The notes under the pieces: model-generated
What the model was told of the DNA's origin: nothing
The model's input: only the letters and a program-made list of their open reading frames with translations
Databases searched by the model: none
Program-made: the position numbers and the translations under genes
In this document: positions 7,856-23,006 of the stretch, in pieces
Position numbering within the stretch: position 1 is the stretch's first letter
Layout: the number at the start of each line of letters is the position of its first letter
IMG/VR virus record: IMGVR_UViG_3300022602_000020
Span: 1 to 30,207 of that record
From: a virus
DNA: 30,207 bases
Strand: one strand, 5' to 3'

Positions 7856-8139
7856 TAGGTAATTTTAACTGGAGTAGTGTGTTTGCTTTGCACCACGCGT
7901 CGGTAATTTTGGGCCCAGATGATTTTAGCGATGGCCTTGCCCATCGCATCTATCCTGCTTTCCGAAAGCTCAGGGAATTCAAGATGGCAGATTTCGTGGC
8001 ACAAAACCTCCAGCTCGCGGAACGGTGATAACCTGGTGTCGATTTCGATAAGAGGGTTAGCTGGATCGTGGTGGGCTTGTCCCCAGGCACGTTCGCGGCC
8101 CAGCTTGCGCCAGATTACTTTAACCTTTCTTTTGGCCAT
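7855..8139 (-). CDS. Mini HExxH zinc metallopeptidase-like protein (94 aa)
   Basis: The start at 8139 (MAKRKVKVIW) has a Shine-Dalgarno-like GAGGA about 7 bases upstream, unlike most genes here, and replaces a longer frame beginning at 8214. The product carries LCHEICHLEFPELSESRID, in which HEICH is a classic zinc-binding HExxH motif with a downstream Glu as possible third ligand. This resembles the small WLM/SprT/YgjP-like metallopeptidase folds. Catalytic function is inferred from the motif only. Its position between the spanin-like lipoprotein and the holin suggests a lysis role or attack on an envelope protein, but it could also act inside the cell. Confidence 0.6.
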   Translation of the reverse strand: MAKRKVKVIWRKLGRERAWGQAHHDPANPLIEIDTRLSPFRELEVLCHEICHLEFPELSESRIDAMGKAIAKIIWAQNYRRVVQSKHTTPVKIT

Positions 8140-8845
8140 TTTTTTCCTCGGTGAAAATGTGCCAAGTAATGATGAATAGGACCACCAGGGCCAGCAGGCC
8201 AATGATAGGGACAAACCAGTTAGAATTAAGCAGGTAGGGTACTGCGCCGACGATGGTACCAGAAACCATTAAGCCACCACCAGCCATTACCCGGCCTAAA
8301 GCTAGGGCGATGCCACCCAAGGTAAGCAGGCCTACTGCTGCCATTGTGTAGAGCTTGCGGTCAGCATCGCGTTCCACTGCTTCCACCTTCTTCTGCAGCG
8401 TTAAAATCTCCTGGTTTTTAAGAGCTGAGACGCGAGCAGCTTCTTTCTGGTCGGATTCCATCTTATTAAACGCATCGTCAATTTTCTTTTGTAAAGTCAT
8501 CCCGTAAGAAATGGCTGCTTTATATTCCTCTGCGTTCATCCTTTCAGCTCGTGCGTGGGCAGCTGCCAGATCAGCGGCCGTGGGCGTGGGAAGGAAAGCA
8601 GCAGCCACTGATAATTCGTTTTCGGTTTTAGCAGTTTGTCCTAGTTTATTTTGGGCGCGAGCTTCGGCCACAGCAGCAGCCACCTTGGCATCAGATTCCG
8701 ATTGCTTCTTATCCGCGTCATCTACGGCCGTGGGCATTACAGGGCCACCAGGTTGCAGTGGTAACACTGCAGGACCTGGAGCTGAAAAGAAGCTGCACCC
8801 AGAAAGCAAGATTACTGCTAGTAAACTGAATGCAACTTTTACCAT
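8120..8845 (-). CDS. Lipoprotein with C-terminal membrane helices, spanin-like (241 aa)
   Basis: The N-terminus MVKVAFSLLAVILLSGC is a lipoprotein signal with Cys17 as the lipidated residue and Ser after it, which favours outer-membrane sorting in proteobacterial-type cells. Residues about 35-165 form a charged helix/coiled coil. The C-terminal third has three hydrophobic segments (LYTMAAVGLLTLGGIALAL, GGLMVSGTIVGAVPYLL and WFVPIIGLLALVVLFIITW) and ends in EEKNGQKKG. Lipoprotein signal at one end and membrane anchor at the other is the layout of a unimolecular spanin, which fuses the two membranes at the end of lysis. Several spans instead of one is unusual. The start couples to the upstream 58-aa gene as TAATG. 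Confidence 0.65.
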   Translation of the reverse strand: MVKVAFSLLAVILLSGCSFFSAPGPAVLPLQPGGPVMPTAVDDADKKQSESDAKVAAAVAEARAQNKLGQTAKTENELSVAAAFLPTPTAADLAAAHARAERMNAEEYKAAISYGMTLQKKIDDAFNKMESDQKEAARVSALKNQEILTLQKKVEAVERDADRKLYTMAAVGLLTLGGIALALGRVMAGGGLMVSGTIVGAVPYLLNSNWFVPIIGLLALVVLFIITWHIFTEEKNGQKKG

Positions 8846-9021
8846 TAAGGTTTTTGCTTTAACGCGTTGAGAAGCTCTTGGGCCTTAGCTTTATCATTAG
8901 CTAATTCAGCTTCCACCTTGGCCGCATCTGCCTCCACCTTATCGCGATTATTACGATAAGCCAGGATTCCGGTGATAGCACCCAGGAGGAAACCAGCTAG
9001 GAAAACAATTAGGTAATTCAT
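8845..9021 (-). CDS. Small N-terminal membrane/coiled-coil protein (58 aa)
   Basis: A short frame from ATG 9021 encodes MNYLIVFLAGFLLGAITGIL as one membrane span, then YRNNRDKVEADAAKVEAELA and DKAKAQELLNALKQKP, a charged coiled coil. The topology, with the N-terminus inside and the coil outside, resembles an i-spanin or a small phage membrane adaptor. It overlaps the lipoprotein gene as TAATG, so the two are translationally coupled and probably work together, perhaps as a spanin pair. It falls just below common ORF size cut-offs. Confidence 0.65.
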   Translation of the reverse strand: MNYLIVFLAGFLLGAITGILAYRNNRDKVEADAAKVEAELANDKAKAQELLNALKQKP

Positions 9022-9030
9022 ATGCGTAAA

Positions 9031-9336
9031 TTATTTAGCAGGAGTAGATGGAGCTGGTGCTGGGGTGCCAGCTGATTGCACACCAGGCACGTAGATCCAT
9101 TTATTAGTGGTGATGGCGGCCGTGGCCGTGGCCGTATCCGCATAGATGTTCGCCTGCCAGCCGGTGTAAATGCGCGTATCGATTTTAACGGTTTTAACTA
9201 CCATAACTTTGTTAACTGCGGTATCGACGAGCACCACTGTTTTACCAGCTGGGACGTTAACGTCTTTCGGGCCAGCGGGGGCGGCGGGGGGAGGGGCCAA
9301 TGGAGCAGGAGGAGGAGTAGATGGAGTAGTTGCCAT
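9031..9336 (-). CDS. Pro/Ala-rich structural protein candidate (101 aa)
   Basis: No family is recognised. Both ends are proline/alanine-rich linkers (TPSTPPPAPLAPPPAAPAGP and TPAPAPSTPAK), flanking a compact beta-rich core (KTVVLVDTAVNKVMVVKTVK, IYTGWQANIYADTATATAAI). The gene directly follows the tail-fibre genes, so it is probably a virion surface or fibre-attachment protein. It is placed before the lysis cassette in the same transcription unit. Confidence 0.6.
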   Translation of the reverse strand: MATTPSTPPPAPLAPPPAAPAGPKDVNVPAGKTVVLVDTAVNKVMVVKTVKIDTRIYTGWQANIYADTATATAAITTNKWIYVPGVQSAGTPAPAPSTPAK

Positions 9337-10333: not shown

Positions 10334-10999
10334 TTAGTAAACGATTAGCTGAGTCCAGTACCCATTTTGCTGAATGTAGTAATTACCATTATTCGGAGCA
10401 AGGGGAACATAGGTGCTCGCGGCCGTGGCCGAAAGCAAATAGGGCGATAACGCAGCGCTGGTAATGTATCCTTGGGATGTTACAAAAGTTTGCGTGGCGT
10501 ACCCAGATAAAGCGGAGTTAGTAATATATCCAGCTGGGTTCGTCGTGGAGTATTTACCATTTAAAGCTGTTTGGAGATCTGTTTGGTTACTAATTAAACC
10601 TGTTATATTTCCCCAAGCCACCGTCGATGTGCCAGCGTTTACCCATTGGGTATTATAATTTGTGCCGTCGATTTTAGCTAGGACCTGGCCAGCTATCCCA
10701 CCCGTCGGCACGCCAGGACCAGCAGGGCCCGTACTTCCAGTAGGTCCAGGAATCCCTTGCGTCCCTTGAGGGCCTGTTTCGAGCTGGAAATTAAAAACTG
10801 CGGCCGATGAAGTACCCGAATTATTTACAGTAGGGGGGGTGCCATAAGGTACAGCGCTTACCGTACCGATAGCGATAGTAGCAGCTTCACCAGGCAGGCC
10901 ACGCGGACCTGGCAGGCCAGTAGTTACCGTTACGGTAGCTGGTGATGGCGTTGACGCGGCCAGGTTAGCGGCCGTCAGTAATGTAATATTCAGCGCCAT
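10334..10999 (-). CDS. Collagen-like tail fibre protein (221 aa)
   Basis: Two runs of Gly-X-Y triplets are visible: GLPGPRGLPGEA near residue 28 and GPQGTQGIPGPTGSTGPAGP near residue 76. Such collagen-like shafts are frequent in phage fibres and form triple helices. Between them lies a beta-rich segment (IAIGTVSAVPYGTPPTVNNS). The later part contains a WGNITGLISNQTDLQTALN block shared with the next fibre protein, then a Tyr/Asn/Gly-rich C-terminus with WTQL at the end. Likely part of the adhesion apparatus. Confidence 0.75.
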   Translation of the reverse strand: MALNITLLTAANLAASTPSPATVTVTTGLPGPRGLPGEAATIAIGTVSAVPYGTPPTVNNSGTSSAAVFNFQLETGPQGTQGIPGPTGSTGPAGPGVPTGGIAGQVLAKIDGTNYNTQWVNAGTSTVAWGNITGLISNQTDLQTALNGKYSTTNPAGYITNSALSGYATQTFVTSQGYITSAALSPYLLSATAASTYVPLAPNNGNYYIQQNGYWTQLIVY

Positions 11000-11347
11000 T
11001 TAGTTATAAATGCTGCCAGATAAAAAACTCCCGGTAACGCTGGGCAGGATAAAGAATTGAATGCTTTGGGTTAGGAACGTGCTACCAGCTCCGTAAGTAA
11101 ACATAATATCCCAATAAGCTGGCCCCACTACCCAATTCATCGTGCTGGTAGGGAAAATTACCGTAAACGTGGTGGGGCTGGTAATTGTAACGATTAAAGG
11201 ATAATAATTATAACCTGCATCGCGAATAGCTGACGTAATCACTACGCCAGTTAGATCCACAGGACCACCTTCATCCTGGGTATAAACGCAGCTGGCCCCA
11301 AAGCTGGTACCCTGTTTGAATTGAATTGGGGGAGGGCTAACGGCCAT
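11000..11347 (-). CDS. Tail/baseplate-type protein (115 aa)
   Basis: The N-terminal IQFKQGTSFGASCVY and PVDLTGVVITSAIRDAGYNY resemble the small Ig-like BppU-N-type phage baseplate domains, where the D-L-T-G and I-R-D motifs recur. The rest is beta-rich (YPLIVTITSPTTFTVIF) with no catalytic motif. Its ATG overlaps the final bases of a conserved 23-bp motif (11346-11368), so this gene begins its own expression module, leading to the fibre and lysis genes. Probably a small virion adaptor or baseplate component. Confidence 0.65.
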   Translation of the reverse strand: MAVSPPPIQFKQGTSFGASCVYTQDEGGPVDLTGVVITSAIRDAGYNYYPLIVTITSPTTFTVIFPTSTMNWVVGPAYWDIMFTYGAGSTFLTQSIQFFILPSVTGSFLSGSIYN

Positions 11348-11368
11348 AAAAACGCGTTATAGTCAAAA
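11346..11368 (-). promoter_or_regulatory. Conserved virion-module motif, copy 5
   Basis: On the minus strand this reads TTTTGACTATAACGCG then TTTTTAT, with the A and T of the final TAT being the first bases of the ATG of the 115-aa gene. It fits exactly between the stop of the upstream fibre gene and this start. The core TTTGAC-N3-AACGCGTTTTTAT is shared with four other copies, supporting a specific regulatory site rather than chance. Confidence 0.8.
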
Positions 11369-12568
11369 TTACAGGTTAGGCGTAATTGCAACCGATGGCA
11401 GAAGGCCACCACCTGTAAACTTATCGCTACCCGACCAGGGATTTTCAAATGCCACTTCCTGGCTTTCAAAATCTGGGGTGGTTAGCCAATTAGGTAAGTT
11501 ATCCACCAAGGTATCTGGGCTATAAAAGAAAACCCCACCGTGGATTAAATTATTAGGTAATGTTACCGGGCCTTCCAAATATTGATAAACGTCCCATTTT
11601 TTACTTCCTGCATTATATTTAACTTGGGCAATCAATACGCGCTGGCAGTTATATTGGGCGATGTACGGTGAGGCCTGGGCGGTTTGAAATTTGTTAATGG
11701 CATCGCCTGCGAACATTCCACCGTTAACTGGGTCCAAGCTACCAGGTACTATGATAGAAATCTGGGTAATGTTTCCGTAAATATCGTAATAAACCTGTTT
11801 ATCGGTGCCTTCATTCCAGGGCGTGCTGGCAATATCACCAGCAGATCCAGCTGCGATTACCGAAATTAAAGGCGTGCTGGCGAACGTACCACCACGCGAA
11901 ATGCCATAAGCATTACGAATAATGTAAACGTTGTAGGTATCAGCTCCGTACGTCGATGACGTGCTACCATCTGTGCCAACATTATAGGTTGTGCTGGCAG
12001 CTCCTGGCGTTGGGGTATCACCGCTAAGAGTGTCATTCGTCGTACCCGTGGCCGTACCCGAATCGGCCGTGGTGGTAGCTGAATCGCCTGAGCCCAGCGT
12101 TACCGTATTAGTTACCCCACCGATTACCGTGGTGACCGTGGCCGAATCACCGGAGCCCAGGGTATAGCTTTGGGTATCTCCAGCGCTCAACGTCGCGAGC
12201 ACGTTAGCTAGCGAGCTAGGACCCATCTGCGACGATGAAACCCCAGATGGGGTAATTAAATTAGTATTTGTACCCGTAGATCCACCAGAAGGGTTTAAAT
12301 TATAGGATGTGGTAGCAGTGTTACCTGGCCCCATATTGTAATCCGCGGTACCGTTGCCTAGGGTATAGCTGTGCGTTACCGAATCGCCTGGAGCTGAAAG
12401 GGTATAGGGGACCGTACTACCACCCAAAACATAGTGGCCGTTTACAATACCCGATGTGCCGGCCAGGAATTGCGTGGTACCACTAGGCGATGACAAACTA
12501 TAAGAGGCAGAACCTCCTGTGCCCAGGAACATCGTGCTACTGCCATTATTCGTAATAGGTCCTGACAT
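11369..12568 (-). CDS. Large Gly/Ser/Thr-rich tail fibre or adhesin (399 aa)
   Basis: The first 230 residues consist of degenerate repeats rich in Gly, Ser, Thr and Tyr, such as TQSYTLGSGDSATVTTVIGG followed by VTLGSGDSATTTADSG and an earlier YTLGNGTADYNMGPGN. At the DNA level, the repeats around 12055-12180 show near-identical 20-base stretches, so they can expand or recombine. The C-terminal part (about 230-399) is a distinct domain with many aromatic and acidic residues (KWDVYQYLEGPVTLPNNLIHG). No catalytic motif is visible. Likely receptor-binding or virion-decorating. Confidence 0.65.
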   Translation of the reverse strand: MSGPITNNGSSTMFLGTGGSASYSLSSPSGTTQFLAGTSGIVNGHYVLGGSTVPYTLSAPGDSVTHSYTLGNGTADYNMGPGNTATTSYNLNPSGGSTGTNTNLITPSGVSSSQMGPSSLANVLATLSAGDTQSYTLGSGDSATVTTVIGGVTNTVTLGSGDSATTTADSGTATGTTNDTLSGDTPTPGAASTTYNVGTDGSTSSTYGADTYNVYIIRNAYGISRGGTFASTPLISVIAAGSAGDIASTPWNEGTDKQVYYDIYGNITQISIIVPGSLDPVNGGMFAGDAINKFQTAQASPYIAQYNCQRVLIAQVKYNAGSKKWDVYQYLEGPVTLPNNLIHGGVFFYSPDTLVDNLPNWLTTPDFESQEVAFENPWSGSDKFTGGGLLPSVAITPNL

Positions 12569-12569
12569 A

Positions 12570-13010
12570 TTAAGGGGGTGTGGCTAGCTTGATATAACCA
12601 CCTAGGCCAATGTAGGGTGAGCTTGAATCTGTACCAATGGTATAAGCGCTGGTAGGCCAAACACCATAACTCTGGGTGGTATATTCAATAGTTTCGTTTA
12701 AATTCTGAATGATGATGGTACCGATGACCACCTGGATAGCTGAAAAGGTGGTTTCACCATTGTTAATGGTGTTAACGAAAACATCGTGTTGAAGAAATTG
12801 CGTGGTGCTCTCTGGCATCGGTTCATTAGTGGTAATGATAGATCCACCAGGTAAAAAACTTACATTGGTCCCAGCACCGATGTAAGGCATAGGTAGCGAG
12901 CTTTGGACCGATTGCGTAAGTTCGTTAAGCTGTTTAGCCAGGATTGGCTGGCCAGCTCCAAAGCGCGAATTAAACCTACTACCCGTTCCGTTAAATCCTA
13001 AATCATCCAT
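12570..13010 (-). CDS. Hypothetical virion protein (146 aa)
   Basis: No family is recognised. Gly/Ser/Thr-rich with beta-like segments (TNVSFLPGGSIITTNE, IQVVIGTIIIQNLNETIEYT), it couples to the upstream gene as TAATG and abuts the fibre gene at 12568. Genomic position among distal tail genes points to a tail tip or fibre-chaperone role, without direct proof. An N-terminal LGFNGTGSRFNSRFGAGQP segment is polar and probably flexible. Confidence 0.6.
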   Translation of the reverse strand: MDDLGFNGTGSRFNSRFGAGQPILAKQLNELTQSVQSSLPMPYIGAGTNVSFLPGGSIITTNEPMPESTTQFLQHDVFVNTINNGETTFSAIQVVIGTIIIQNLNETIEYTTQSYGVWPTSAYTIGTDSSSPYIGLGGYIKLATPP

Positions 13011-13885
13011 TAGTCGGGGAAAATTGGTGTGGTCATTGTCGGGTAAATATCTGGGTCCCAGGGGAATTCGCCAGAAATCATAATATCGTAAACCACCTTA
13101 ATCGCAGCTGGCTGGTTAACGTTCCCGATGCATTCCGCGTTGGCCGTGGTTAAAAGGCAATATGCACCCGAAAGAGCACCCACTAAACTGTTAGGGGTAA
13201 TTAGCGTGGTTTGGTCAGGATCGTGCAAACGCCATCCGACGTGGTTGGTCATTAAAGCTGCTTTATCCAAATGGTCCGGCCCTAAGAAAATAGTACCGCG
13301 AACGGTCCACATCGGTTTAAGATATTGACGCACCCCAGCTTTCTTATTGGCGGCCGTGGCCACGTTGGAAACGCCAAACCCATTAAACGCCCAATAATTA
13401 CTGCTAGAATTCTTAGTGAACATCGCGTTATTGTACCGCGTGCCTTCGGCCGTCCCAGCTAATGGCGTAGCTGAATCAAATCCTGTATCCCCACCGTTAA
13501 GCTGGAGATAAGTAAAATTCGGATGGGTTTCAATAGGTTGCGCGGAGGTATTAGCCACGCCCGTACATTGGGCATTACTGTACCCTTCTGCAGCATAGAC
13601 TCCCATATAATCTATGGTTAGCGTCGCGATGTTGGCTTTATCAAAAGTAATATCCCATTTGTAAGCTATCATCGAAAACCCTAAAGATTCTGGGTAAACC
13701 ATTACCGATGAATCCCGGCTTTTAATTTTATTTTGAATGTCAATAATGTTCGACATTTGCGACGGGCCACCGTTAATGCGCCAAATGGTTTGAGCTTGGG
13801 CCATCCCAAAGGGATCATAATGAATTCCACCAGATGGCTGGCGTAATCCTAAATCAGTTAATGCATTTCCGTAATTAGTACTCAT
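13010..13885 (-). CDS. Distal tail structural protein (291 aa)
   Basis: The protein is a single globular unit with scattered beta strands (ITFDKANIATLTIDYMGVYA; MWTVRGTIFLGPDH) and several Trp/Tyr-rich regions (NYWAFNGFGVSNV). No family is recognised. It directly follows the tape measure, overlapping it by four bases, where distal-tail or tail-tip genes normally lie, so a tail-tip assignment is inferred from order. There is no hint of a peptidase or lysozyme domain. Confidence 0.6.
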   Translation of the reverse strand: MSTNYGNALTDLGLRQPSGGIHYDPFGMAQAQTIWRINGGPSQMSNIIDIQNKIKSRDSSVMVYPESLGFSMIAYKWDITFDKANIATLTIDYMGVYAAEGYSNAQCTGVANTSAQPIETHPNFTYLQLNGGDTGFDSATPLAGTAEGTRYNNAMFTKNSSSNYWAFNGFGVSNVATAANKKAGVRQYLKPMWTVRGTIFLGPDHLDKAALMTNHVGWRLHDPDQTTLITPNSLVGALSGAYCLLTTANAECIGNVNQPAAIKVVYDIMISGEFPWDPDIYPTMTTPIFPD

Positions 13886-15153
13886 TTGGCTAAATCTACA
13901 GGTTCGTTAGATGTGGCAGATAAATTTGGGGTTTTGTTATCAATTGATTTTAACGATTCGGCCTGCTGTTGATTCACATCTAAAATCTGTGCCTGCGTAT
14001 CATACGTGGCCTGGTAAACGCTGCCAATGTCACCACCGCCAATGGCCTGCAGTGATGACGCAATTACTTGGGGTGCTTTACTGTTATTTTTTTCTAAAGT
14101 ATCTGCGAAATTAGCGCTAACTTCATCGGTGGCGTTTTCATTACGTTCCGCGATTTCATTAACAATATCATTATAAATCTTTTCCGCAGCTTGTGGGCCC
14201 ATTACACCAGAAACAGGGGAAGTTAACGCAGCATAATATGAACCACCTTCTGCAAACATCTTATTTGCATAATCTAAAATTTCATCGTTTTTCATTCCCA
14301 TTTTTTTACCCGTACGAAGGAATTCGTTAGTGAGCTGCTGCTGTTGCTCTGTGGTAATACCTTCCAATCCGTACCGTTCCAGGCCTTGTTTTTCTAAACT
14401 TTTATCCAGGGCATTTGAAAATTCTTCCTTAATGGCAAATTCACCCAGGCCTGCAGCCAGCTCGCGCATTAATTCATCCCAGGCACGACCAGCTGCACGT
14501 GCGGCCTTTTCAGCTGCCACCCCAGCCCTAATTTCTTCATCGGTAAAAATTTTAGCATTCTCGGCCAGCTCCTTCATATGTTCTGAACCCATTTGAAGTA
14601 CCGGGATTAAATCAGCTCCAGATTTACCGAAAATCTTCATAATGGTTTCGGTATATTGCGTGGCATCACCAGATTTCTTTATGGCATCTGATAAACTATA
14701 AACCACATCTATAGCTTTAACTTGCTTTGCGCTATTTTCATCCGTAGCCAAACCTAAGGCACGTAAGATATTTAAATTAGCGGCCGAACCCTGGGAAGCT
14801 TCATTTAAAAACTTATTTGTCTTAACCAGGGCCATCCCAATTTGCTCAATACCTACCCCAGATTCTTTACCAGCTTTACCCAGGGTTTGTAAATCCGATG
14901 ATGATGCACCCGTTTTCTTCATCGTGTTTTGCAGATCCATAAAGTACTGACCTGCTTCCCGAATCCCGGAATATATGTTACTGACGATAGTAGTAACTGC
15001 AAAGGCACCCAGGAACATCTTAGTGGCCTTATTCGCTGCGTCACCAAAGCTATTAGCCATCGCCATCCCGGCCTGTTCAGCTGCGGCCGATGCGCCTTTA
15101 CTGAGCCCGGAGAAGTCACCACCAAATTTTACTTTTACATCTGAATCTGCCAT
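13882..15153 (-). CDS. Tail tape measure protein (423 aa)
   Basis: Long, mostly helical, alanine-rich protein with an N-terminal VKVKFGGDFSGLSKGASAAA segment, a common start of tape measure proteins, a hydrophobic segment FLGAFAVTTIVSNIYSG (about 47-63) and heptad-like charged stretches (LAENAKIFTDEEIRAGVAAEK). It sits after the tail-chaperone candidate, as in other siphoviruses. At about 0.15 nm per residue, it predicts a tail near 60-65 nm, shorter than most siphoviruses. It lacks a visible lytic domain. Confidence 0.8.
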   Translation of the reverse strand: MADSDVKVKFGGDFSGLSKGASAAAEQAGMAMANSFGDAANKATKMFLGAFAVTTIVSNIYSGIREAGQYFMDLQNTMKKTGASSSDLQTLGKAGKESGVGIEQIGMALVKTNKFLNEASQGSAANLNILRALGLATDENSAKQVKAIDVVYSLSDAIKKSGDATQYTETIMKIFGKSGADLIPVLQMGSEHMKELAENAKIFTDEEIRAGVAAEKAARAAGRAWDELMRELAAGLGEFAIKEEFSNALDKSLEKQGLERYGLEGITTEQQQQLTNEFLRTGKKMGMKNDEILDYANKMFAEGGSYYAALTSPVSGVMGPQAAEKIYNDIVNEIAERNENATDEVSANFADTLEKNNSKAPQVIASSLQAIGGGDIGSVYQATYDTQAQILDVNQQQAESLKSIDNKTPNLSATSNEPVDLAK

Positions 15154-15154
15154 T

Positions 15155-15739
15155 TTAATTTCGGTTTAGGTTATTGTTTTTATTTTGAGATTCAGCGGCC
15201 TTGTAATCCTCCATAGCTTGCCATTCCTGCTCTGAAACTACATCTATCTTCGCACCATTAGCTTTACAATGGGCAATATGCAGCCAAACAGCTTCGGCTT
15301 CTGGCATTGTCCAAGCTTCTTCTAAACTGCACCCATTACGCGTTAGGCCTGCGATAATGGATAAATGCCAGGGGATTCCACAATCACTGCTTTTGCTATC
15401 CTTTTCCCAGAAACGTGGCCATAGCGCCTGGGCATTAAAATAGTTAATCAGCTTTATAGCTTCGCGTAAAAAAACAGCAGGCCTATGGTTATATAAAGCT
15501 AGTAAATAGCTTTCTTTTAGCGTTGGTCCTCCACGCGTGCTTTCCATATCATACGTGCTTAATACCCGTACCGCAAACAGTAGATCCTGGGGCGTAAGGT
15601 TAAGCTTAATATTTAGGACAGGGCTATTTACAGCTTCCAGGGCAACGCGGTGACGTAGGCAGAATGGTAAAAGAGTTTTACCGCAAACCTTGACGGTAGG
15701 CGGTAAAATTGTTGCGGCCTTTATCCACCTATTTTCCAT
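15155..15739 (-). CDS. Tail assembly chaperone candidate (194 aa)
   Basis: Position between the tail-tube candidate and the tape measure is where tail-assembly chaperones lie. The C-terminal half has NGCSLEEAWTMPEAEAVWLH, a W-M-P-E helix typical of such proteins. The N-terminal part (residues about 20-60) includes LPFCLRHRVALEAVNSPVLN and LTPQDLLFAVRVLSTYDM. No -1 frameshift signal or second overlapping frame was recognised here, unlike the classic lambda G/GT arrangement. A metabolic role is unlikely given the setting. The assignment rests mainly on position. Confidence 0.6.
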   Translation of the reverse strand: MENRWIKAATILPPTVKVCGKTLLPFCLRHRVALEAVNSPVLNIKLNLTPQDLLFAVRVLSTYDMESTRGGPTLKESYLLALYNHRPAVFLREAIKLINYFNAQALWPRFWEKDSKSSDCGIPWHLSIIAGLTRNGCSLEEAWTMPEAEAVWLHIAHCKANGAKIDVVSEQEWQAMEDYKAAESQNKNNNLNRN

Positions 15740-15747
15740 CGGTGGGT

Positions 15748-15765
15748 TAATCCCTTTAGGGATTA
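15748..15765 (-). terminator. Hairpin after tail-tube candidate
   Basis: TAATCCC/GGGATTA with a four-base loop overlaps and directly follows the stop codon of the 116-aa gene. There is no long U-run, so it may be a weak terminator or an mRNA stabiliser. The loop and CCC/GGG stem match the hairpin at 26623-26640 (ATACCCC/GGGGTAT), suggesting a recurring element. It would leave the tube candidate at higher expression than the chaperone and tape measure. Confidence 0.5.
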
Positions 15766-16113
15766 CGTGCTAATACCTTGGTATTTCTTCGCCTTGATCT
15801 GAATCTTACGGAAACCATTGTTAGTACCAGCATCATCAGTTGAAATGATAATGTAGCTAATACCGTTATAAGTAATCGTCGATGCAGGCAAGGGAATCGA
15901 GGATGTGGGTTTAAGCACGCCAGTTAACGTAATTTCGTCGCGCTGGTCATCTAAACGCAAGGTGGCTACCACCCCGGTGCTGTCCATTACTTCGGCCTGG
16001 ATTACATCGGTTTTGCTAATGTCATCCGATTGCAACGTAATAAAACCATTAGTAGAAGTTGCGTCATAAACGCCCCAAACCTGGGCGGTTCCGTAAGTAG
16101 TGGGTGTGGCCAT
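15763..16113 (-). CDS. Small tail tube/major tail protein candidate (116 aa)
   Basis: Beta-rich, no Cys, with segments TDVIQAEVMDSTGVVATLRL, DDQRDEITLTGVLKPTSSIP and FRKIQIKAKKYQ. The VxDxxGxV...R.DDxxxEIT pattern occurs in small tail proteins of other phages, as far as can be judged from memory. It begins its own expression module, with the conserved motif at 16119-16141 and a hairpin at its end, which fits a high-copy structural protein such as the tail tube. At 116 residues it is smaller than most tail-tube proteins, so another tail role is possible. Gene order (connectors before, chaperone after) supports the tube. Confidence 0.6.
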   Translation of the reverse strand: MATPTTYGTAQVWGVYDATSTNGFITLQSDDISKTDVIQAEVMDSTGVVATLRLDDQRDEITLTGVLKPTSSIPLPASTITYNGISYIIISTDDAGTNNGFRKIQIKAKKYQGIST

Positions 16114-16118
16114 AGCTT

Positions 16119-16141
16119 ATAAAAACGCGTTTGTGTCAAAA
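16119..16141 (-). promoter_or_regulatory. Conserved virion-module motif, copy 4
   Basis: On the minus strand TTTTGACACAAACGCG is followed by TTTTTAT; the ATG of the tail-tube candidate lies five bases further on. The motif sits in the 32-base gap between that gene and the upstream tail-terminator candidate. Together with copies at 11346, 17810, 19368 and 22835 it defines the core. Confidence 0.8.
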
Positions 16142-16145
16142 TGGA

Positions 16146-16580
16146 TTACTGGGGTGGGTAAACGGCCACTAAACTGTATTGGATAACGTTACCCCATCGA
16201 CGATCAGCTACCCCTTCATCATCCGAAATTACCTGGCTAAAATATAATGTACCTTGCTGCCATAAGCTCTGCATCGTCGCAAAATCCTCCATAATGGCCT
16301 GGGTGGCCTCCACGCGTGCGCGATGCTGTGCCAGGGTAGAATCATCCGCTGAGGAATAGACGTAAATGCGTACCGTAATGGCAAAATTTCCATTAGGGGT
16401 GCCACCTAGATCTGGGTGGGCTTGGGCAGATTCCGCGTGGATAATAATGATAGGTAGGGACCGGATGGCATCGGTTTGACCTGCCACCAGCTCCACGCTG
16501 GGAAGCATCGTCGCGTTGGCCTGGAATAAAGCTAATAGCGATTGCTCAGTGATGGTACGAATTCCGTATAACGTAGTCAT
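16146..16580 (-). CDS. Tail terminator-like protein (144 aa)
   Basis: Length, position just upstream of the tail-tube candidate and the alternating strands and helices (LPIIIIHAESAQAHPDLGG, NFAITVRIYVYSSADD, HRARVEATQAIMEDF) resemble lambda gpU-type tail terminator or tail-completion proteins, which cap the tube. The first helix TITEQSLLALFQANATMLP is typical of that fold. The assignment is by architecture and order, not by a unique motif. The start overlaps the upstream stop by four bases. Confidence 0.6.
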   Translation of the reverse strand: MTTLYGIRTITEQSLLALFQANATMLPSVELVAGQTDAIRSLPIIIIHAESAQAHPDLGGTPNGNFAITVRIYVYSSADDSTLAQHRARVEATQAIMEDFATMQSLWQQGTLYFSQVISDDEGVADRRWGNVIQYSLVAVYPPQ

Positions 16581-17467
16581 AAATTAAAATAGGATGCGGT
16601 ATTGGTAGCTTTCCAAATAACCACAGAATTTTTATTCATATAATTGGCCATCTGGGCACGCATTTTTAAAGCACGCTGGTTAATGGCTGCCTTGGTCCAG
16701 GATTCATTACCCAGCTTATTACCGATAACATTACCCACCGTAATTTCTGGGGTTTGCTTTTGTTGGGATTTATCGATGGCGATAGCGTTACCAGCTGCAT
16801 TTTTATTTTTGGCCCAGGCCGGTACCGTAATTTTTGCACCGATCCTTTGAGCTGCAAACCAGTAAGCAGATTTAAGCAGGCCTACATCCTTTTGCTTAAA
16901 TTTAATGTATTTATTTAATTCATCTTCATCTTGGACAATAGCAAAAGAATGCTCAGCTTCCTTCGCGGATGTTTTAAGTCCACCACGGCCACCATCTAAT
17001 CGGTATTGGCGCATAAAGTTATCCATCGCATCTATGCTACCGCGTGGGAAGTACTTGGTTGGCGTTCCCTGGTTGCCATATTTGGCCTGGAATTGTACCC
17101 ATCGGATTTTACGGCCAGAAGCTGGACCTAACCTATTATTACGTTCACCCCAGGCCTTAAATACGTCATAATCGCCTATAGAAGCGATTTGTTGGCTAGT
17201 CGCGTGCTCAATTGGTTGAAATATCTTCCTGGCCGAATTAGTGACGTTATCAAACCCCACCTTTTTAGCTGCAATAGTACCACCCGTTCCACCCGATGAT
17301 TTGCTAGCAAACGGCCGGGTATATCCCACCATATCTTTACAAAATAAACCGGCCTGCTGGCGAATCACTGTAGATATTTCTTTACCCATAACAGTTGCGT
17401 AGTCCTGGATATGGGCCAGAAAAATAGTGTCATCTACTACTACATTACCACGCGCTCGAATTGCCAT
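16577..17467 (-). CDS. Tail completion or neck protein candidate (296 aa)
   Basis: Located between a head-closure candidate and the tail terminator candidate, where HK97 gp10-like or lambda gpZ-like tail completion proteins are encoded. The protein is basic, has an N-terminal helix (IQDYATVMGKEISTVIRQQA) followed by Gly/Ser-rich regions, and a long helical C-terminal half with many Lys and Asn. An N-terminal segment resembling minor tail gpZ is plausible, but no signature is certain. No nuclease or enzymatic motif is seen. The stop and start couple to both neighbours. Confidence 0.5.
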   Translation of the reverse strand: MAIRARGNVVVDDTIFLAHIQDYATVMGKEISTVIRQQAGLFCKDMVGYTRPFASKSSGGTGGTIAAKKVGFDNVTNSARKIFQPIEHATSQQIASIGDYDVFKAWGERNNRLGPASGRKIRWVQFQAKYGNQGTPTKYFPRGSIDAMDNFMRQYRLDGGRGGLKTSAKEAEHSFAIVQDEDELNKYIKFKQKDVGLLKSAYWFAAQRIGAKITVPAWAKNKNAAGNAIAIDKSQQKQTPEITVGNVIGNKLGNESWTKAAINQRALKMRAQMANYMNKNSVVIWKATNTASYFNL

Positions 17468-17811
17468 TACGTTGGGCCAGCGCTAGACATTACTTTACAA
17501 ATAATCCAGGCCGATGGTGGGCGGTCATTAATTGCGACGATTCTAAATTGTGTACCGTTGTAATTGACCAGGTTACCGTAGATCACAATGCCAGGATTAA
17601 GTACCGTATCGGTACGTAAAAATTTAATATCGTATGAAGTTGAATTAAGAAAACCTCCCGTGGTCATATCCTGCTGAACCATCGGTGCTGACATTAAAAC
17701 GTTAAACGCTACGGGCGTACCGGTAGTAGTGTGCTGAACAGTTACAGCTTTGGGAATTTCGCTAAGAATAATCGCAGCGTCGGCGGCCCATTCATCTTGT
17801 ATCATTCCCAT
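17467..17811 (-). CDS. Head-tail connector/head closure-like protein (114 aa)
   Basis: Small beta-rich protein (AVTVQHTTTGTPVAFNVLMS, YDIKFLRTDTVLNPGIVIYG, QFRIVAINDRPPSAWIICKV), in line with head-closure or stopper proteins such as lambda gpFII or SPP1 gp16-like folds. It is the first gene after the capsid terminator and begins with the conserved motif at 17810-17831, whose final bases overlap its ATG. A second ATG two codons later is an alternative. It likely links the portal-joiner ring to the tail. Confidence 0.6.
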   Translation of the reverse strand: MGMIQDEWAADAAIILSEIPKAVTVQHTTTGTPVAFNVLMSAPMVQQDMTTGGFLNSTSYDIKFLRTDTVLNPGIVIYGNLVNYNGTQFRIVAINDRPPSAWIICKVMSSAGPT

Positions 17812-17831
17812 AAAAACGCGTTACAGTCAAA
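17810..17831 (-). promoter_or_regulatory. Conserved virion-module motif, copy 3, just after the capsid terminator
   Basis: On the minus strand TTTGACTGTAACGCG is followed by TTTTTAT; the final AT overlaps the ATG of the 114-aa gene. Placement directly downstream of a hairpin at 17845-17867 argues that transcription stops after the capsid gene and restarts here. That makes a promoter role more likely than a purely translational element. Confidence 0.85.
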
Positions 17832-17844
17832 GCACGTAAATAAA

Positions 17845-17867
17845 ATGGGCTCCGATTTGGAGCCCAT
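17845..17867 (-). terminator. Strong hairpin after major capsid gene
   Basis: ATGGGCTCC and GGAGCCCAT form a perfect 9-bp stem with a five-base loop, 24 bases beyond the capsid stop codon. On the minus strand it is followed by TTTTATTTA, a moderate U-tract, and preceded by an A-run, so it may also work in the reverse direction. It is one of the best terminator candidates in the window and would limit read-through from the highly expressed capsid gene. Confidence 0.75.
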
Positions 17868-17890
17868 TGTTTTTTGTATTTGAATTACGA

Positions 17891-18856
17891 TTACGAAGTA
17901 AACGCAACTCGAGCAAGCGCAGCAGGATTTCCGACTGCAGTACCCTGGATTAGGTTGGCATTGAAGTGAAGCTTTCCTTCCTGCCAATTATAATATTGAC
18001 GGAAGGCGAGAGAGAAGCCTGAACCACCTTCACCATCTTGACCGTTGTCCGTAATAATCTCCTGCGTGCCACCACCGACCGTGATGGTATTGGGCACTCG
18101 AATTACCGACATTAAGCCTTGTTTCGCCGATGCGATGCCATTCAAACCTTCAGTATAAGCAGTACCAGTAGTGGGGAAAGCGCTGTACTCCCAGCAGCGA
18201 AGGCCGTGAAGCTTACCGAAATATCCGTTGGAAAATTCATTAGACTGACCATCGCGAATAACGCTGTTGTCGCCGATGCTCAAGAATTGCGCTACTTGAG
18301 GATCAGCAAGCAATTGAGCATAACCAGAAGGCGAAAGTAATAACGTGCGGCCTTGGTAAGGAATGTTCATTTGCGTTAACTTCGTAACGATAGGAACAAT
18401 ACCACTAGCACGATTAAACGATGCCAAGCTACCAGAGTAACCAGCGTTAGTGAAATTTGCAGACGTGCAAAGAGCTAGCAAGTTGTCAAAAATAGATTTC
18501 GCAACTGACTCTACCATAGGTTCAATAAAAACATTTTTCAACATCGTCGGCGAAATCGCAGCGCTTTCAGTATCAGAAAATGCGATATCAACGAAAGTTT
18601 GCGTGCTCAACGTAACTGCAATATCAGCAGCGTTAGCGCTTTGCTCAGTGAAACCGACCGAAGGGTCATAGGTTTGAGCAGTAAGCGGAGCAGCGAGGCG
18701 CGTATGGACCACGTTACCAATATTCGCAACGTAAGGGGACCAGTCCGTTACGCAGATCTCTTTCAAGGGCTGCAGAACAGGCACCAGCGTGCGAAGGGTT
18801 TCGGCCGCCACGAATTGAGGAGCAAGGCCTTGATTTAAAACGGAATTAGTTGCCAT
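17891..18856 (-). CDS. Major capsid protein (HK97-fold, P22 gp5-like)
   Basis: The 321-residue protein follows the protease and scaffold as expected for a capsid gene. It has an N-terminal helix (QFVAAETLRTLVPVLQ), strands around HTRLAAPLTAQTYD and FVDIAFSDTE, a long central helix (TMLKNVFIEPMVESVAKSIF) and PYQGRTLLLSPSGYAQLL, a segment typical of the P22-type coat family. Length fits a small siphovirus capsid. Codon choice is cleaner and more G/C-rich than in neighbours, as expected for high expression. It is followed by a strong hairpin. The lack of a fused protease domain agrees with the separate protease at 19385-20956. Confidence 0.8.
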   Translation of the reverse strand: MATNSVLNQGLAPQFVAAETLRTLVPVLQPLKEICVTDWSPYVANIGNVVHTRLAAPLTAQTYDPSVGFTEQSANAADIAVTLSTQTFVDIAFSDTESAAISPTMLKNVFIEPMVESVAKSIFDNLLALCTSANFTNAGYSGSLASFNRASGIVPIVTKLTQMNIPYQGRTLLLSPSGYAQLLADPQVAQFLSIGDNSVIRDGQSNEFSNGYFGKLHGLRCWEYSAFPTTGTAYTEGLNGIASAKQGLMSVIRVPNTITVGGGTQEIITDNGQDGEGGSGFSLAFRQYYNWQEGKLHFNANLIQGTAVGNPAALARVAFTS

Positions 18857-18894
18857 TTTGTTTAGTTAATTGTGTTAGGAATTTTTAAGAAAAA

Positions 18895-19362
18895 TTATTT
18901 AATGCCTAGGTGAGCGATAATCTTATTACGATGTTTGTTATAGAAAGTTTGCTTTGCAGCACTAGGTGGCATCGCCAGGTATTCTTCCCAGAGCTCTTTA
19001 CCGGATTTATTTGCAGCTTCTGCTGTGCTACCAGGAATGATTTCTATAGGAGTAGCACCAGCGGCCGCCACGATCTGTGCGGCCTTCTTACCTACTGACT
19101 CAATTTTGTTATTAGCTTCGGCCTTTTCCTTTTCAACTGCGGCCAAGCTCTTTAACAATTCTTCAACCTTGCTAGCCAACGCGTCGCGTTCGGAAACAGC
19201 AGCTGCGGCCATCTCAAACTTTTCAGTCAAGGTAGCAATCTCAGCAGCCAGCGTATCATTCTTTTCTTTTAACGCAGAAACTTCTTTAGCGTGAGCTTCG
19301 GCCTCGGCATTCTTATTAGTGAATGCGGCTTTTAAGGCCTTAAAGGATTCTTCTAAAGTCAT
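18895..19362 (-). CDS. Scaffold-like coiled-coil protein (155 aa)
   Basis: Mostly one long coiled coil (residues about 1-105) with heptads of E, K, A and L (AEAHAKEVSALKEKNDTLAA, AAVEKEKAEANNKIESVGKK), then a Pro/Gly linker and a C-terminal helix (KQTFYNKHRNKIIAHLGIK) rich in basic residues. Helix-plus-basic-tail is the organisation of many phage scaffolding proteins, in which the C-terminus binds the coat. It lies directly between protease and capsid genes. It begins at the end of the conserved motif 19368-19389. No homologue can be named with certainty. Confidence 0.65.
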   Translation of the reverse strand: MTLEESFKALKAAFTNKNAEAEAHAKEVSALKEKNDTLAAEIATLTEKFEMAAAAVSERDALASKVEELLKSLAAVEKEKAEANNKIESVGKKAAQIVAAAGATPIEIIPGSTAEAANKSGKELWEEYLAMPPSAAKQTFYNKHRNKIIAHLGIK

Positions 19363-19367
19363 AGGTT

Positions 19368-19389
19368 ATAAAAACGCGTTCGTGTCAAA
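19368..19389 (-). promoter_or_regulatory. Conserved virion-module motif, copy 2
   Basis: On the minus strand TTTGACACGAACGCG is followed by TTTTTAT; the scaffold ATG is five bases later. The protease stop codon lies inside the TTTGAC part, so the site overlaps the end of the upstream gene. It is the same core as the four other copies and marks the start of the scaffold-capsid module. Confidence 0.85.
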
Positions 19390-20956
19390 TGGTCCGGCCT
19401 TTGTGACGTTTTTTAGCACCATCGTTTTGCTTCTTTTCCGTCTCCAGAGCTTCTTCCGCGTCGGCCTCATCATCCATTTTTTTAACGGTATCTGGGTGAA
19501 TACAATGCCAGCCAGCTTCGGTATAGGCCTCAGCACAATGCTCATCATTTTCGACGATATGGGCGATATGATGACCTTCGGCCTCAATTTTACCTACTAC
19601 GTCCACCTTGTAATACGGGGTGGCGCGTTCGTCAGCTTCCTGCTTCATATGCAGGCCGTGGTGCTCGACATTGTGTTTAGCCAAATACTCGCTAACTTTA
19701 GCACGATCTTCTTCGTGCCGGCCAGTTACCACGTGAATTTCTCGGCCAGCTTTAGCCATCTTTTTAAGGTGACGTGCGACAGATTTATTTAAGGTTTCAT
19801 CCTCATTTTCATTTTTAATCGTGCCATCGAAATCAGAAATAACGATGTGCTTTGATTCCATATGCTTTTCGTCCTTATCTTCATCTTCTTCCTCATCCTC
19901 ATCCATTTTAGGGGGAAGCTTATCAGCTTCTAAATCTGGGGTAGTAGGAACGCCATCTTCATCTTCATCATCATCCTCCTCATCATCCTTTTTAGAGGCC
20001 TGTGGTTTAAGGTTTAAGTTAATACCAACCAAAGCACGTGCGGACGCGGTAAGTAATTTACCTTTAGCTTCTGGCATCGTTTCATCAGCTTCCAGCTGTT
20101 TGTTTTCTTCATCAGCTTCCATTTGCTCAGCCACTGCGGAATCTAAAGATTCCATCAGCTCATCAAACCCATTAATAAGGCCAGTAACCAGGCCAACTGC
20201 GGCCGCTTTCGTACCGCTAAAGGTTTGGCCTTCCATAGACGAATCTTCAACAAATTCGCGGACCGATTTAACTGCCGTTTTAAACTGCGCCCAAATATCG
20301 ATAACTTCCTCCTGGAGCATAGCACGCTGGCGTTCGTCTAAAGACGTGCCAGGAATTCCAGCACCTTTGAACATCCCGGCTTTGATAACGTCCATTTTAA
20401 TACCTTCGTTAGCATAGGCCTGGGACATATCTGGATAAGCGATGTAAACACCTACCGAACCCACCGTAGATGATGGCGTGGCATAGAAGCTCTTAGCTTG
20501 CGATCCAAGCCAGTAGGCAGCGCTGCAGGCCTCGCTATCCGTAAAAGCGATAGTGTTTTTACTGCAATTTTTAATACGATTAGCCAGCTCTGGAACGCCC
20601 ACTGAGCAACCACCAGGCGAATCAATATGGAAAATAATGTTAGTAATACTTTTATCGTTTACTGCATCTTCCAACATTTCTTCAACGTCCTGGATATCGC
20701 AACATCCGCACATCTTTTCCATTTCGGAAAGATTCTTACCGATTACACCTTTAATGGGAATTACCGCGTAAGGAGGAAACTTTTCATAGGTTTGAACTTC
20801 ACCGAAAATGGCTGCAACCATTTCGCCAATATCCGAAATTTTGGTACCCAGGGGAATATGGGTCAGTTGGTTAGTACGCTCCAGGTAAGCTGCAGCTTGC
20901 TCAGATTTAATGAGCAGTGGGCGATTACCCTTAATGTCTTTTAATAAATTCTTCAT
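19385..20956 (-). CDS. Capsid maturation protease (S49/gpC-like) with C-terminal HAD phosphatase-like domain
   Basis: Residues 1-270 are an S49/ClpP-like serine protease of the lambda gpC type: FHIDSPGG (about 109-116), SEACSAAYWLGS with catalytic Ser145, and IKAGMFKGAG with the matching Lys197, 52 residues later as in the family. A Glu/Asp-rich linker occupies 322-365. Residues 366-490 have the complete order of HAD motifs: SDFDGT (Asp375, Asp377), VVTGR with Thr411, Lys450 in YYKVD, and HIVENDEH with Asp471. The latter resembles the 3'-phosphatase domain of phage polynucleotide kinases. An internal ATG at 19861 with AAGGA upstream could give the HAD domain alone, as lambda gpC gives Nu3. 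The fusion is unusual. Confidence 0.85.
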   Translation of the reverse strand: MKNLLKDIKGNRPLLIKSEQAAAYLERTNQLTHIPLGTKISDIGEMVAAIFGEVQTYEKFPPYAVIPIKGVIGKNLSEMEKMCGCCDIQDVEEMLEDAVNDKSITNIIFHIDSPGGCSVGVPELANRIKNCSKNTIAFTDSEACSAAYWLGSQAKSFYATPSSTVGSVGVYIAYPDMSQAYANEGIKMDVIKAGMFKGAGIPGTSLDERQRAMLQEEVIDIWAQFKTAVKSVREFVEDSSMEGQTFSGTKAAAVGLVTGLINGFDELMESLDSAVAEQMEADEENKQLEADETMPEAKGKLLTASARALVGINLNLKPQASKKDDEEDDDEDEDGVPTTPDLEADKLPPKMDEDEEEDEDKDEKHMESKHIVISDFDGTIKNENEDETLNKSVARHLKKMAKAGREIHVVTGRHEEDRAKVSEYLAKHNVEHHGLHMKQEADERATPYYKVDVVGKIEAEGHHIAHIVENDEHCAEAYTEAGWHCIHPDTVKKMDDEADAEEALETEKKQNDGAKKRHKGRTI

Positions 20957-20975
20957 AATTTTTTTTAGTAAATAG

Positions 20976-22553
20976 TTAGGTTAATGTTTTAAATTCTTCG
21001 TCATTATCTTCGGTATCAGCTTTTGGGCCGTTATCACCGTCGATATCCGGGATAGATGTATTGAGAGGCATATAGATGCGCCAGGGCTCCAGGCCTTCCT
21101 CTTTACAACGTTTTAAAATATATTTTTGCTCATTAATGCGGCGCTCGGTTTCATCATAGAAATCACTGCCACGTTCCGCAAAATCATCGCTAAGGGTTTT
21201 CAACCCCATTTGAATATCGCGCTGGTTAGCAGAAGCATCCCGGCCAGCATCTACAGTAATCTTGCGTGGAGTTACCCAATTAACCTTATTGAAATTGTCA
21301 TTAGGTGGTAGATCGCCATTAGCGATAGCGGACGCAATAACGTACGCGTAGGTGGGCGAACATAACCTATCGATTAAAACCTTTTGTCGGGCTTCAAATA
21401 CGCGCTGGGCTTTGGCAGTCACTAAACGTACTCCAGTAGAACCTGGTTTAGATGGATCTACGGTAAATTCATAAGGTAGCACGCCACCTACCGAATCCCG
21501 ATTAAGCTGGTCAATAAAGGTTTGAAAATTCTCGTTAGCTCGCGTGCTGGTGTGTGATTCCAGCTTTTCACCTGGGCTTAATGCCAGGATTTTGCCACCC
21601 ACAAAAGCACCCACCTCACCTGGGTTTGTATAAACTGAATTATTGGTTTGGCCCCAATCTTGAGGGCGCATCCCGAAACTTTGGAAATCGGCCACATCTC
21701 CAGCGAATTCACCAGCTTCTTTAGTGATGGTGCGAACAATATCCGCGTTAGCTTTTACCGCTTCTTTTTCCAGCGATAACATTTCTAAAATATCTACAAT
21801 ATTATTAATACTGTGCTGGAGAGGGGAATAAGCTCGTGCACCACTAACTTGCTCTGGGTGATGCACGTGCATCATCGACGCAGCGGAAACTTCGCGTGCA
21901 TCGCCATCAGATTTGATAATATTATATCCCGTTACCTTACCGTATTTATTAAAAATAATTCCGTCGAAAATCCCAGCTTGTGGGTTTTCAGTATAATTAG
22001 TGGTGCCTACCCGGTGACTCTCGATAATCTGTAGCTGGCAGTTACCCTGGGTGTCGAATGTCTTTAGGGCAAAAACTTCACCGTCGATATCGATGCGACG
22101 CGAACAAATCTGCTGAACGTCAGCGAAATTATAACGGCCCGTTACTTCACAAACCTGGCTACTCCAATTATGAAAGTAATCATAGGCCATTTTATCCCAG
22201 GCCGCATCGCCACTGGCTGGTTGAGCTTTGAGACCATCACCGACGGAATAAAGCGCCATATCACTAACCATCTGACGTACCAGGCCACTATTAACCGAAA
22301 GCCAGCGCATTTTCCGCGTTAGCTCCTGGCGGTCAAAAGTGGACATTACCTTCTTAAAATCAGCAGGATAAGGCGAATTAATCCACTGGCGTTTATTACT
22401 AAACTTAGCTCCTTCAAATTGGCTAAAAATCCCACTACCTCCCCATCCACCTCCAGCACCACCCATCCCATCAGCTCGCGCTTTTAATGGGGTGTTTTTA
22501 CCTGCAGTTTTCTTAACAGGTAAATTAATTTTCTTTTTAGGGATGCGTGCCAT
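20976..22553 (-). CDS. Portal protein (lambda gpB-like)
   Basis: The ATG at 22553 (MARIPKKKINLPVK) is used rather than 22586, which would overlap the upstream joiner gene. The 525-residue protein has FSNKRQWINSPYPADFKKVM, WLSVNSGLVRQMVSDMALYS and QQICSRRIDIDGEVFALKTF segments, which match the core of the lambda-type portal family, where this arginine-rich helix and beta core line the DNA channel. Position after the large terminase and joiner supports it. Twelve copies would form the ring through which DNA enters the head. Confidence 0.85.
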   Translation of the reverse strand: MARIPKKKINLPVKKTAGKNTPLKARADGMGGAGGGWGGSGIFSQFEGAKFSNKRQWINSPYPADFKKVMSTFDRQELTRKMRWLSVNSGLVRQMVSDMALYSVGDGLKAQPASGDAAWDKMAYDYFHNWSSQVCEVTGRYNFADVQQICSRRIDIDGEVFALKTFDTQGNCQLQIIESHRVGTTNYTENPQAGIFDGIIFNKYGKVTGYNIIKSDGDAREVSAASMMHVHHPEQVSGARAYSPLQHSINNIVDILEMLSLEKEAVKANADIVRTITKEAGEFAGDVADFQSFGMRPQDWGQTNNSVYTNPGEVGAFVGGKILALSPGEKLESHTSTRANENFQTFIDQLNRDSVGGVLPYEFTVDPSKPGSTGVRLVTAKAQRVFEARQKVLIDRLCSPTYAYVIASAIANGDLPPNDNFNKVNWVTPRKITVDAGRDASANQRDIQMGLKTLSDDFAERGSDFYDETERRINEQKYILKRCKEEGLEPWRIYMPLNTSIPDIDGDNGPKADTEDNDEEFKTLT

Positions 22554-22564
22554 ATCTACAAATT

Positions 22565-22834
22565 TTATAACCCTCGGAAATTCCACAGGCCGTTATAAAC
22601 GCGCACAGTGTCTCGGTTTCCGTATTGCATTGGGTTTAAAATCTGTAGCGCATAACGACATTCCACTAAGGCCACCTGTGGATCCATAGCGAATTTTTTA
22701 CCCACAGATGTACCGGAATCTGTGTAACTCATCATCGTTTTACCCTCCAAAATCATCGCAGCAGCTTGGTCGCGAATCGCCTCAATAGTGGTTTGAGGCA
22801 ACGTTAAGAAGCAACCGGTAGGGCGTATGCTCAT
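22565..22834 (-). CDS. gpW-like head-tail joining protein (89 aa)
   Basis: The ATG at 22834 is chosen because it lies immediately at the end of the conserved motif 22835-22857; a longer frame starting at 22975 would translate through the motif. The product starts MSIRPTGCF and includes ALVECRYALQILNPMQYG and RDTVRVYNGLWNFRGL. Length and position between large terminase and portal match lambda gpW, which stabilises packaged DNA and prepares the head for tail attachment. The sequence similarity is only general. Confidence 0.65.
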   Translation of the reverse strand: MSIRPTGCFLTLPQTTIEAIRDQAAAMILEGKTMMSYTDSGTSVGKKFAMDPQVALVECRYALQILNPMQYGNRDTVRVYNGLWNFRGL

Positions 22835-22857
22835 ATAAAATCGCGTTACAGTCAAAA
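22835..22857 (-). promoter_or_regulatory. Conserved virion-module motif, copy 1
   Basis: On the minus strand TTTTGACTGTAACGCG is followed by ATTTTAT, then the ATG of the joiner gene. It differs from the other copies at one T of the T-run. It is the most upstream of the five copies and opens the joiner-portal-protease module. Confidence 0.8.
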
Positions 22858-22871
22858 TAACCATAACGGGG

Positions 22872-23006
22872 CTACCAACCTTGCATAACAAGATTGGCAG
22901 CTTTGCGGCTAGACCACCAATGCCCAATGAATCCCACCGCGATGTAAATATGCTTAACTGCTCTGCCATTGTCAAGGGGTAGCAGTTTTATTTTCATCCT
23001 GGCCAT
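22872..23006 (-). CDS. Possible 41-44 aa ORF overlapping the large terminase end
   Basis: A frame distinct from terL and from the joiner extension starts at ATG 23006 (MARMKIKLLPLDNG) or 22997 (MKIKLLPLDNG) and ends with TAG at 22872, just upstream of the motif. It has a hydrophobic, aromatic centre (HIYIAVGFIGHWW) and a basic tail (SSRKAANLVMQGW). It would overlap terL by 26-35 bases, normal for this genome. It fills the only sizeable gap in the head region. No homologue is recognised. Confidence 0.45.
   Translation of the reverse strand: MARMKIKLLPLDNGRAVKHIYIAVGFIGHWWSSRKAANLVMQGW

Follow-up and report, generated by a model that had tools for sequence, protein, structure and literature searches.

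Promoters of the T7-type single-subunit RNA polymerases are about 20 bp long, end at +1, carry a lineage-specific block and stand at the head of modules. The late promoters of phiEco32-like phages depend on sigma factors that the phages encode, phi32_gp36 and 7-11 gp47, and consist of either about 9 bp (tAATGTAtA) or the bipartite GTAAtg-16-aCTA (PMC8948821), and those of phage AR9 (AACA-N6-TA/G) are served by a phage multisubunit RNA polymerase and give leaders of 26-491 nucleotides (nt) (PMC5312081). Short start-associated sequences are known from the cluster K mycobacteriophages, in which they occupy the ribosome-binding position and contain AGGAG (PMC3203893). In this study, a TTTGAC-led element that occurs five times in the IMG/VR virus record IMGVR_UViG_3300022602_000020 (30,207 nt, the whole of which is referred to here as the window) was compared with its counterparts in related phages. 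Neither this element nor its geometry, in which TTGAC lies one helical turn away from a lineage-private -10-like block and the start is at AUG, is described in the literature searched. The five copies are read here as phage-specific late promoters, at which the host polymerase would be brought in by a co-varying factor and would start at a conserved A; we put the probability of this reading at roughly 0.6.

The pattern TTTGAC-N3-AACGCGTTTTTAT occurs five times in the window, on the minus strand only; four copies are exact and the copy before the joiner gene differs by one mismatch (AACGCGATTTTAT). These are the copies from which the original prediction of a promoter-like motif had been made, and all five lie where it had placed them, 0-5 nt, as counted in its own frame, from the ATG of the genes that it had named. 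Dinucleotide-preserving shuffles gave a chance expectation of 0.04 matches and never reached five.

Relatives were collected from viral_contigs via terminase, capsid and connector searches, which yielded a large clade of uncultivated phages, mostly of 30-36 kb. The comparison set comprised 16 genomes or long fragments, joined and oriented by script, together with the 16.9 kb fragment G002 and Verrucomicrobia phage P8625, the nearest named relative by terminase (25% identity, covering most of the protein). TTGAC was found within 40 nt upstream of the scaffold gene in 17/17 cases, of the tail-tube candidate in 18/18, of the joiner in 16/17, of the connector in 16/18 and of the first gene of the fibre module in 12/12. 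For the other virion and packaging genes compared (small and large terminase, portal, protease, capsid, g16577, g16146, g15155, tape measure, g13010 and g12570) there were only 0-2 such cases each, of 17-19. When each of the 16 genomes or long fragments was scanned over its whole length with its own consensus, these five places came up again, all on the coding strand, and stray matches were weaker and very few. At the connector, TTGAC stands exactly 14 nt before the ATG in 68 of 75 loci, and the remaining seven have TTGGAC, GTGAC or TTTAC at that spot. As an independent test, 2.9 million viral contigs were searched for TTGACTCCCGCGTAG-N4-ATG, the form found in the commonest lineage; there were 52 matches, every one of them ahead of a joiner, connector or fibre-module gene belonging to this clade. 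The same five genes thus carry the element in every sufficiently complete relative, as expected of the module-heading, promoter-like role that had been proposed; the site stays at the same places while its spelling shifts by lineage, and loss of the motif from genes that persist was not seen.

The anatomy of the element was obtained by aligning the copies on TTGAC and taking column identity between the modules of one genome. Identity is at background (about 26%) up to -21, reaches 96-100% at -19 to -14, is 75-84% at -13 to -11 and 92-100% at -10 to -5, and then passes through 60-70% at -4 to -1 to 98% at +1, decaying by +4. The TTGAC core is near-invariant over all copies. The 14 nt that follow it match at 85% between the modules of one genome and at 49% between genomes at the same module (genome permutation maximum 56%). 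The segment at about -10 to -5, the private block, is near-identical across the five sites of one genome and different between lineages: xCGCGTTTTT in the window, xGCAATTTT in G001 and G002, GCCTAGTCTT in G007, GCGTAGGTTC in G008, TCGCATTAT in G009, GCGGAGGTTC in G012, GCGCTATTTT in G021 and GGCTAAAAAC in G019. Sites of one genome that change their spelling in concert are characteristic of a trans-acting reader co-evolving with them. The TATA-like end of the window copies, which had been taken as a box 12 nt from TTGAC, is not kept; this stretch reads TAGGTTC, AATTTT, GAGGTTC, CTATTTT and so on in relatives.

Where the element precedes a joiner, connector or fibre-module gene, the 14 nt are in most cases followed directly by the A of the ATG, or by a base no more than 2 nt from it. 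In the scaffold and tail-tube copies the conserved A is not the start codon and is still A in 34/35, with a pyrimidine directly before it in 33/35; over all copies, the distance from the end of the element to the ATG ranges from 0 to 21 nt. Since the position of this A follows the motif rather than the start codon, and a pyrimidine precedes it as in the usual -1/+1 preference of transcription starts, the A reads as a start site. It looks like the +1 of leaderless or short-leader mRNAs, and the nearly leaderless transcripts that had been predicted gain from its conservation even where it is not part of an ATG.

Hairpins precede the joiner and connector copies (median z -3.2 for the joiner in 16 genomes and -2.3 for the connector) and often extend into the T-run of TTTTGAC, whereas the scaffold, tail-tube and fibre-module copies lack a preceding hairpin signal (median z about -0.5). 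In the window, the connector copy directly follows a perfect hairpin with a T-rich tail, in agreement with the strong terminator that had been noted there. A transcription unit that starts past a terminator needs a promoter of its own, and at the joiner and connector copies little sequence besides the element lies between hairpin and ATG.

From this comparison we infer promoter activity, a start point and a probable reader. Each promoter would span about 20 bp, with TTGAC at -19 to -15, the private block at about -10 to -5 and then the +1 A, at which an RNA polymerase recruited by a sequence-specific factor would start. The joiner, connector and fibre-module genes, with few exceptions, would be transcribed from the ATG or within 2 nt of it, giving leaderless mRNAs, and the scaffold and tail-tube genes would receive short leaders, usually of 7-21 nt, that lack a Shine-Dalgarno sequence. 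Past the terminator-like hairpins, transcription would be restarted by the joiner and connector copies. The polymerase would most likely be that of the host, because no phage polymerase was found. A T7-like RNA polymerase (PF00940) was detected in 0/20 records, by a search whose control was equally silent, and no reading frame in the window exceeds 625 amino acids (aa), the longest being terminase, portal and protease; the gene list seems to leave no room for such an enzyme.

The recruiting factor would most likely be a 243-aa protein with a sigma-region-4-like helix-turn-helix, the gene of which sits just upstream of the small terminase gene. In sigma factors, region 4 is responsible for recognising -35 boxes of the TTGACA type. 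Residues about 100-172 of the candidate are modelled with confidence by AlphaFold as a helical domain, and hhalign relates the helix-turn-helix domain to sigma region 4 (91%), MarR (80%) and GerE (21%). Sigma-A region 4 is among the top Foldseek matches, but weakly (E about 0.1-0.8), and one member has a Pfam Sigma70_r4 match at E 0.24; no significant sequence match was found in the PDB, nor any in named phages by tblastn. The protein is present in 16/19 clade records searched. Of the three others, at least one, G011, ends at the place expected for the gene (with spacing as in G015). P8625 has no homologue and also differs in its upstream elements. With the genome background removed, divergence of the protein correlates with divergence of the motif (partial r 0.62 in the reduced set; permutation p 0.003), the highest value of 30 gene sets; its N-terminal part reaches a partial r of only 0.25. 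In the recognition helix, the residue after 'VS' is L or Q in lineages whose private block starts with GCG or GCC; other blocks go with I, H, W or R at this residue. The pairing is suggestive only, the deviating lineages being also the most divergent. The original prediction had suggested that the reader could be a phage or host factor not obvious from the sequence; it is not altogether hidden, this conserved protein being a reasonable candidate and the best one.

Several points weigh against this reading. Sigma region 2 was not found in the candidate, the N-terminus of which compares with sigma factors at only 0.2% and 2.3% in hhalign, so that the protein cannot be a complete sigma factor. 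High co-variation with the motif is also seen for the connector (0.54) and two further genes, and could in part reflect shared ancestry. A TTGAC core at -19 lies a long way from where a -35 box is normally placed, and the private block frequently has a high GC content, so that the element matches none of the known sigma70-type geometries. Confinement to one strand and closeness to starts would likewise be expected of a site that acts in RNA, for processing or translation control. A bolder form of the proposal, in which a lone sigma-4-like phage protein would read TTGAC beside the private -10-like block, in place of a -35 box, and host polymerase would start 14 nt downstream at the start codon, with a private code per lineage, is advanced only tentatively and is on balance doubtful. 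The class of promoters read by phage sigma factors was rejected as an assignment, region 2 having been looked for in the candidate and not found; the element does share with that class its phage specificity and its conserved places before virion genes.

Of the other explanations, an RNA-level element fares best, though it is unlikely: a phage or host protein would bind the mRNA before the first gene of each module and control its translation, a role that has been proposed for the start-associated sequences of cluster K mycobacteriophages. Every copy ends 0-21 nt from an ATG on the coding strand, and there is a precedent in the asymmetric repeats that abut starts in cluster K phages (PMC3203893). 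However, the distance to the ATG is variable whereas that between motif and conserved A is constant, and copies sit past terminator-like hairpins, where a new promoter is needed. Capsid, protease and portal genes have intergenic gaps of their own and yet lack the element, which argues against a general initiation signal, and the sole hairpin that the motif could form (CTCCCGCGGAG) is limited to some of the genomes. The start-associated class itself was rejected as an assignment, its position and core being different; no AGGAG core occurs in the window copies.

Less likely again is an mRNA processing site, at which a nuclease would cut long polycistronic late transcripts before the conserved A and leave leaderless 5' ends. 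The fixed pyrimidine-A junction 14 nt past TTGAC is compatible with cleavage, and all copies lie within one co-directional late region. On the other hand, the cut would fall downstream of the private block, whose free variation from lineage to lineage is that of a DNA-binding specificity, and the hairpins before two copies would terminate the precursor RNA.

Ordinary host sigma70 promoters are already disfavoured and would now be surprising, as the original prediction had also held. TTGAC(A/T) is the canonical -35 core, and three genes of the distant relative P8625 are preceded by TTGACA-N17-TATTGG-N7-ATG. In the clade itself no -10 hexamer was found 16-18 nt past TTGAC, identity being near background at +6 to +11, and transcription would begin within the reading frame, even though conservation at the protein level extends to the N-termini (e.g. 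MGxIQDEW). Such promoters would also give no account of the private block at -10 to -5. A generic sigma70 scan gave no more sites than shuffles, and only one of them overlaps an element copy (17830-17801). Sigma54 geometry (GG at -24, GC at -12) was also looked for: the conserved block contains no GG and has TTGAC in its place. Finally, a repressor operator silencing the virion genes early, built on the 8-bp palindrome AACGCGTT that the original prediction had pointed out, is largely refuted and has very little left in its favour, since the palindrome occurs in 4/5 window copies but is missing from the joiner copy and all other lineages, and the element is asymmetric and co-directional throughout. 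On this comparison the palindrome is incidental.

Table 1. Coordinates of the element copies, hairpins and genes discussed (window numbering).
Feature	Position	Strand	Remarks
Element copy 1 (joiner)	22837..22855	-	TTGACTGTAACGCGATTTT; predicted +1 A at 22836; ATG at 22834; orthologous copy in 16/16 long relatives
Element copy 2 (scaffold)	19370..19388	-	TTGACACGAACGCGTTTTT; predicted +1 A at 19369; ATG at 19362, 7-nt leader
Element copy 3 (connector)	17812..17830	-	TTGACTGTAACGCGTTTTT; predicted +1 = A of ATG at 17811
Element copy 4 (tail-tube candidate)	16121..16139	-	TTGACACAAACGCGTTTTT; predicted +1 A at 16120; ATG at 16113, 7-nt leader
Element copy 5 (fibre module, first gene)	11348..11366	-	TTGACTATAACGCGTTTTT; predicted +1 = A of ATG at 11347
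Strong hairpin, 14-bp stem	22871..22901	-	between terminase and copy 1; hairpins here in most relatives
Terminator-like hairpin, T-rich tail	17844..17868	-	between major capsid gene and copy 3; z -5.3
Candidate reader, 243 aa	25463..26194	-	N-terminal YxxWW helix; C-terminal sigma-region-4-like helix-turn-helix, residues about 130-175
Joiner candidate	22565..22834	-	position between terminase and portal; no family match
Scaffold candidate	18895..19362	-	coiled coil, 5' of major capsid gene; weak coiled-coil matches only
Connector candidate	17467..17811	-	first gene past major capsid gene; N-terminus MGxIQDEW conserved
Tail-tube candidate	15763..16113	-	named by position; no family match
Fibre-module first gene	11000..11347	-	phrog_1084 (unknown function); followed by collagen-like fibre gene

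The names that had been given to the genes behind the copies fared unevenly. That of the scaffold has weak coiled-coil matches behind it; the joiner, connector and tail-tube candidates have no PHROGs or Pfam match and owe their names to position alone, and nothing indicates a baseplate role for the gene behind copy 5, which belongs to the fibre module. The TGA inside the scaffold copy doubles as the stop codon of the upstream protease gene. That head maturation protease (19385-20956) matches polynucleotide kinase / HAD-type families (phrog_415, phrog_505) in its C-terminal residues, about 362-499, a fusion that capsid proteases do not usually show.

The record is a complete phage genome of ~30 kb, the first 85 bases of which recur at its end, and nearly all of its genes lie on the minus strand. 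Family matches were found for terminase, portal, head protease, major capsid, tape measure, a DnaB-type helicase and a phosphoesterase; Rfam and tRNA scans of the window gave no matches. A host search via genome_contigs returned a single remote Clostridia match (25%), insufficient to assign a host. On the minus strand between 228 and 6491, Shine-Dalgarno sequences are rare and A/T-rich stretches precede most starts, which suggests a host with weak Shine-Dalgarno use. GTACGTYAT tandem repeats lie at 4589-4628 on the minus strand, immediately 5' of the gene at 4385-4588, and paralogous short coiled-coil genes are found near the contig ends (1-640 and 29319-30207), with common repeats D1 and D5-D8 and the motif ERLTKAGD. 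In a related phage (L012), an insertion between the capsid and connector genes (about 8000-9300) holds several small open reading frames, each after (A/C)AA(T/C)GCTCCCAATG, a second start-associated repeat; some also have TTGAC-led sigma70-like promoters.

If the five copies are late promoters, they form a predicted clade-wide promoter code, with predicted leaderless virion mRNAs, in a group of uncultivated phages from aquatic habitats, of which the nearest named relative is a Verrucomicrobia phage. The element would mark transcription units in genomes without a culture, and the natural pairs of binding site and candidate factor across many lineages make DNA specificity and co-evolution directly testable. 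Were the lone sigma-4-like reader true, it would represent a new mode of control of transcription initiation, with leaderless late virion mRNAs and a private promoter code for each lineage.

Compared with known systems, the element resembles T7-type promoters in its length of about 20 bp, its end at +1, its lineage-specific block and its place at the head of modules, but no phage polymerase gene was found in the genomes of this clade, which are of ~32 kb. With AR9 it shares a compact element that ends at the start base and lacks a -35 box; it differs in that no polymerase gene was found and in its leaders of 0-21 nt. Like the cluster K sequences, it is a short asymmetric repeat by the start codons of related phages, whereas its distance to the ATG is variable, a Shine-Dalgarno core is mostly missing and only five module-heading genes carry it. 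In P8625 (L036), TTGACA-N17-TATTGG/TATCTG-N7-ATG stands before gp08, gp15 and gp22 (5412-5447, 10736-10771 and 15558-15593), with a GTATCCA/TGGATAC inverted repeat spanning the -10 region, and these sites are predicted to be leaderless sigma70-type promoters with a common operator. They share with the element the TTGACA-led repeat just 5' of the first gene of some virion modules and the predicted leaderless start, but have a canonical 17-nt spacer, a -10 box (TATTGG) and the inverted repeat. By analogy, the element would work like a phage-specific late promoter set such as that of phiEco32 or 7-11: in both, a few phage-specific copies stand before late genes at similar places and the consensus changes with the phage factor (PMC8948821), although here TTGAC is paired with a private block at a distance of 4 nt, and no sigma region 2 is recognisable in the candidate factor.

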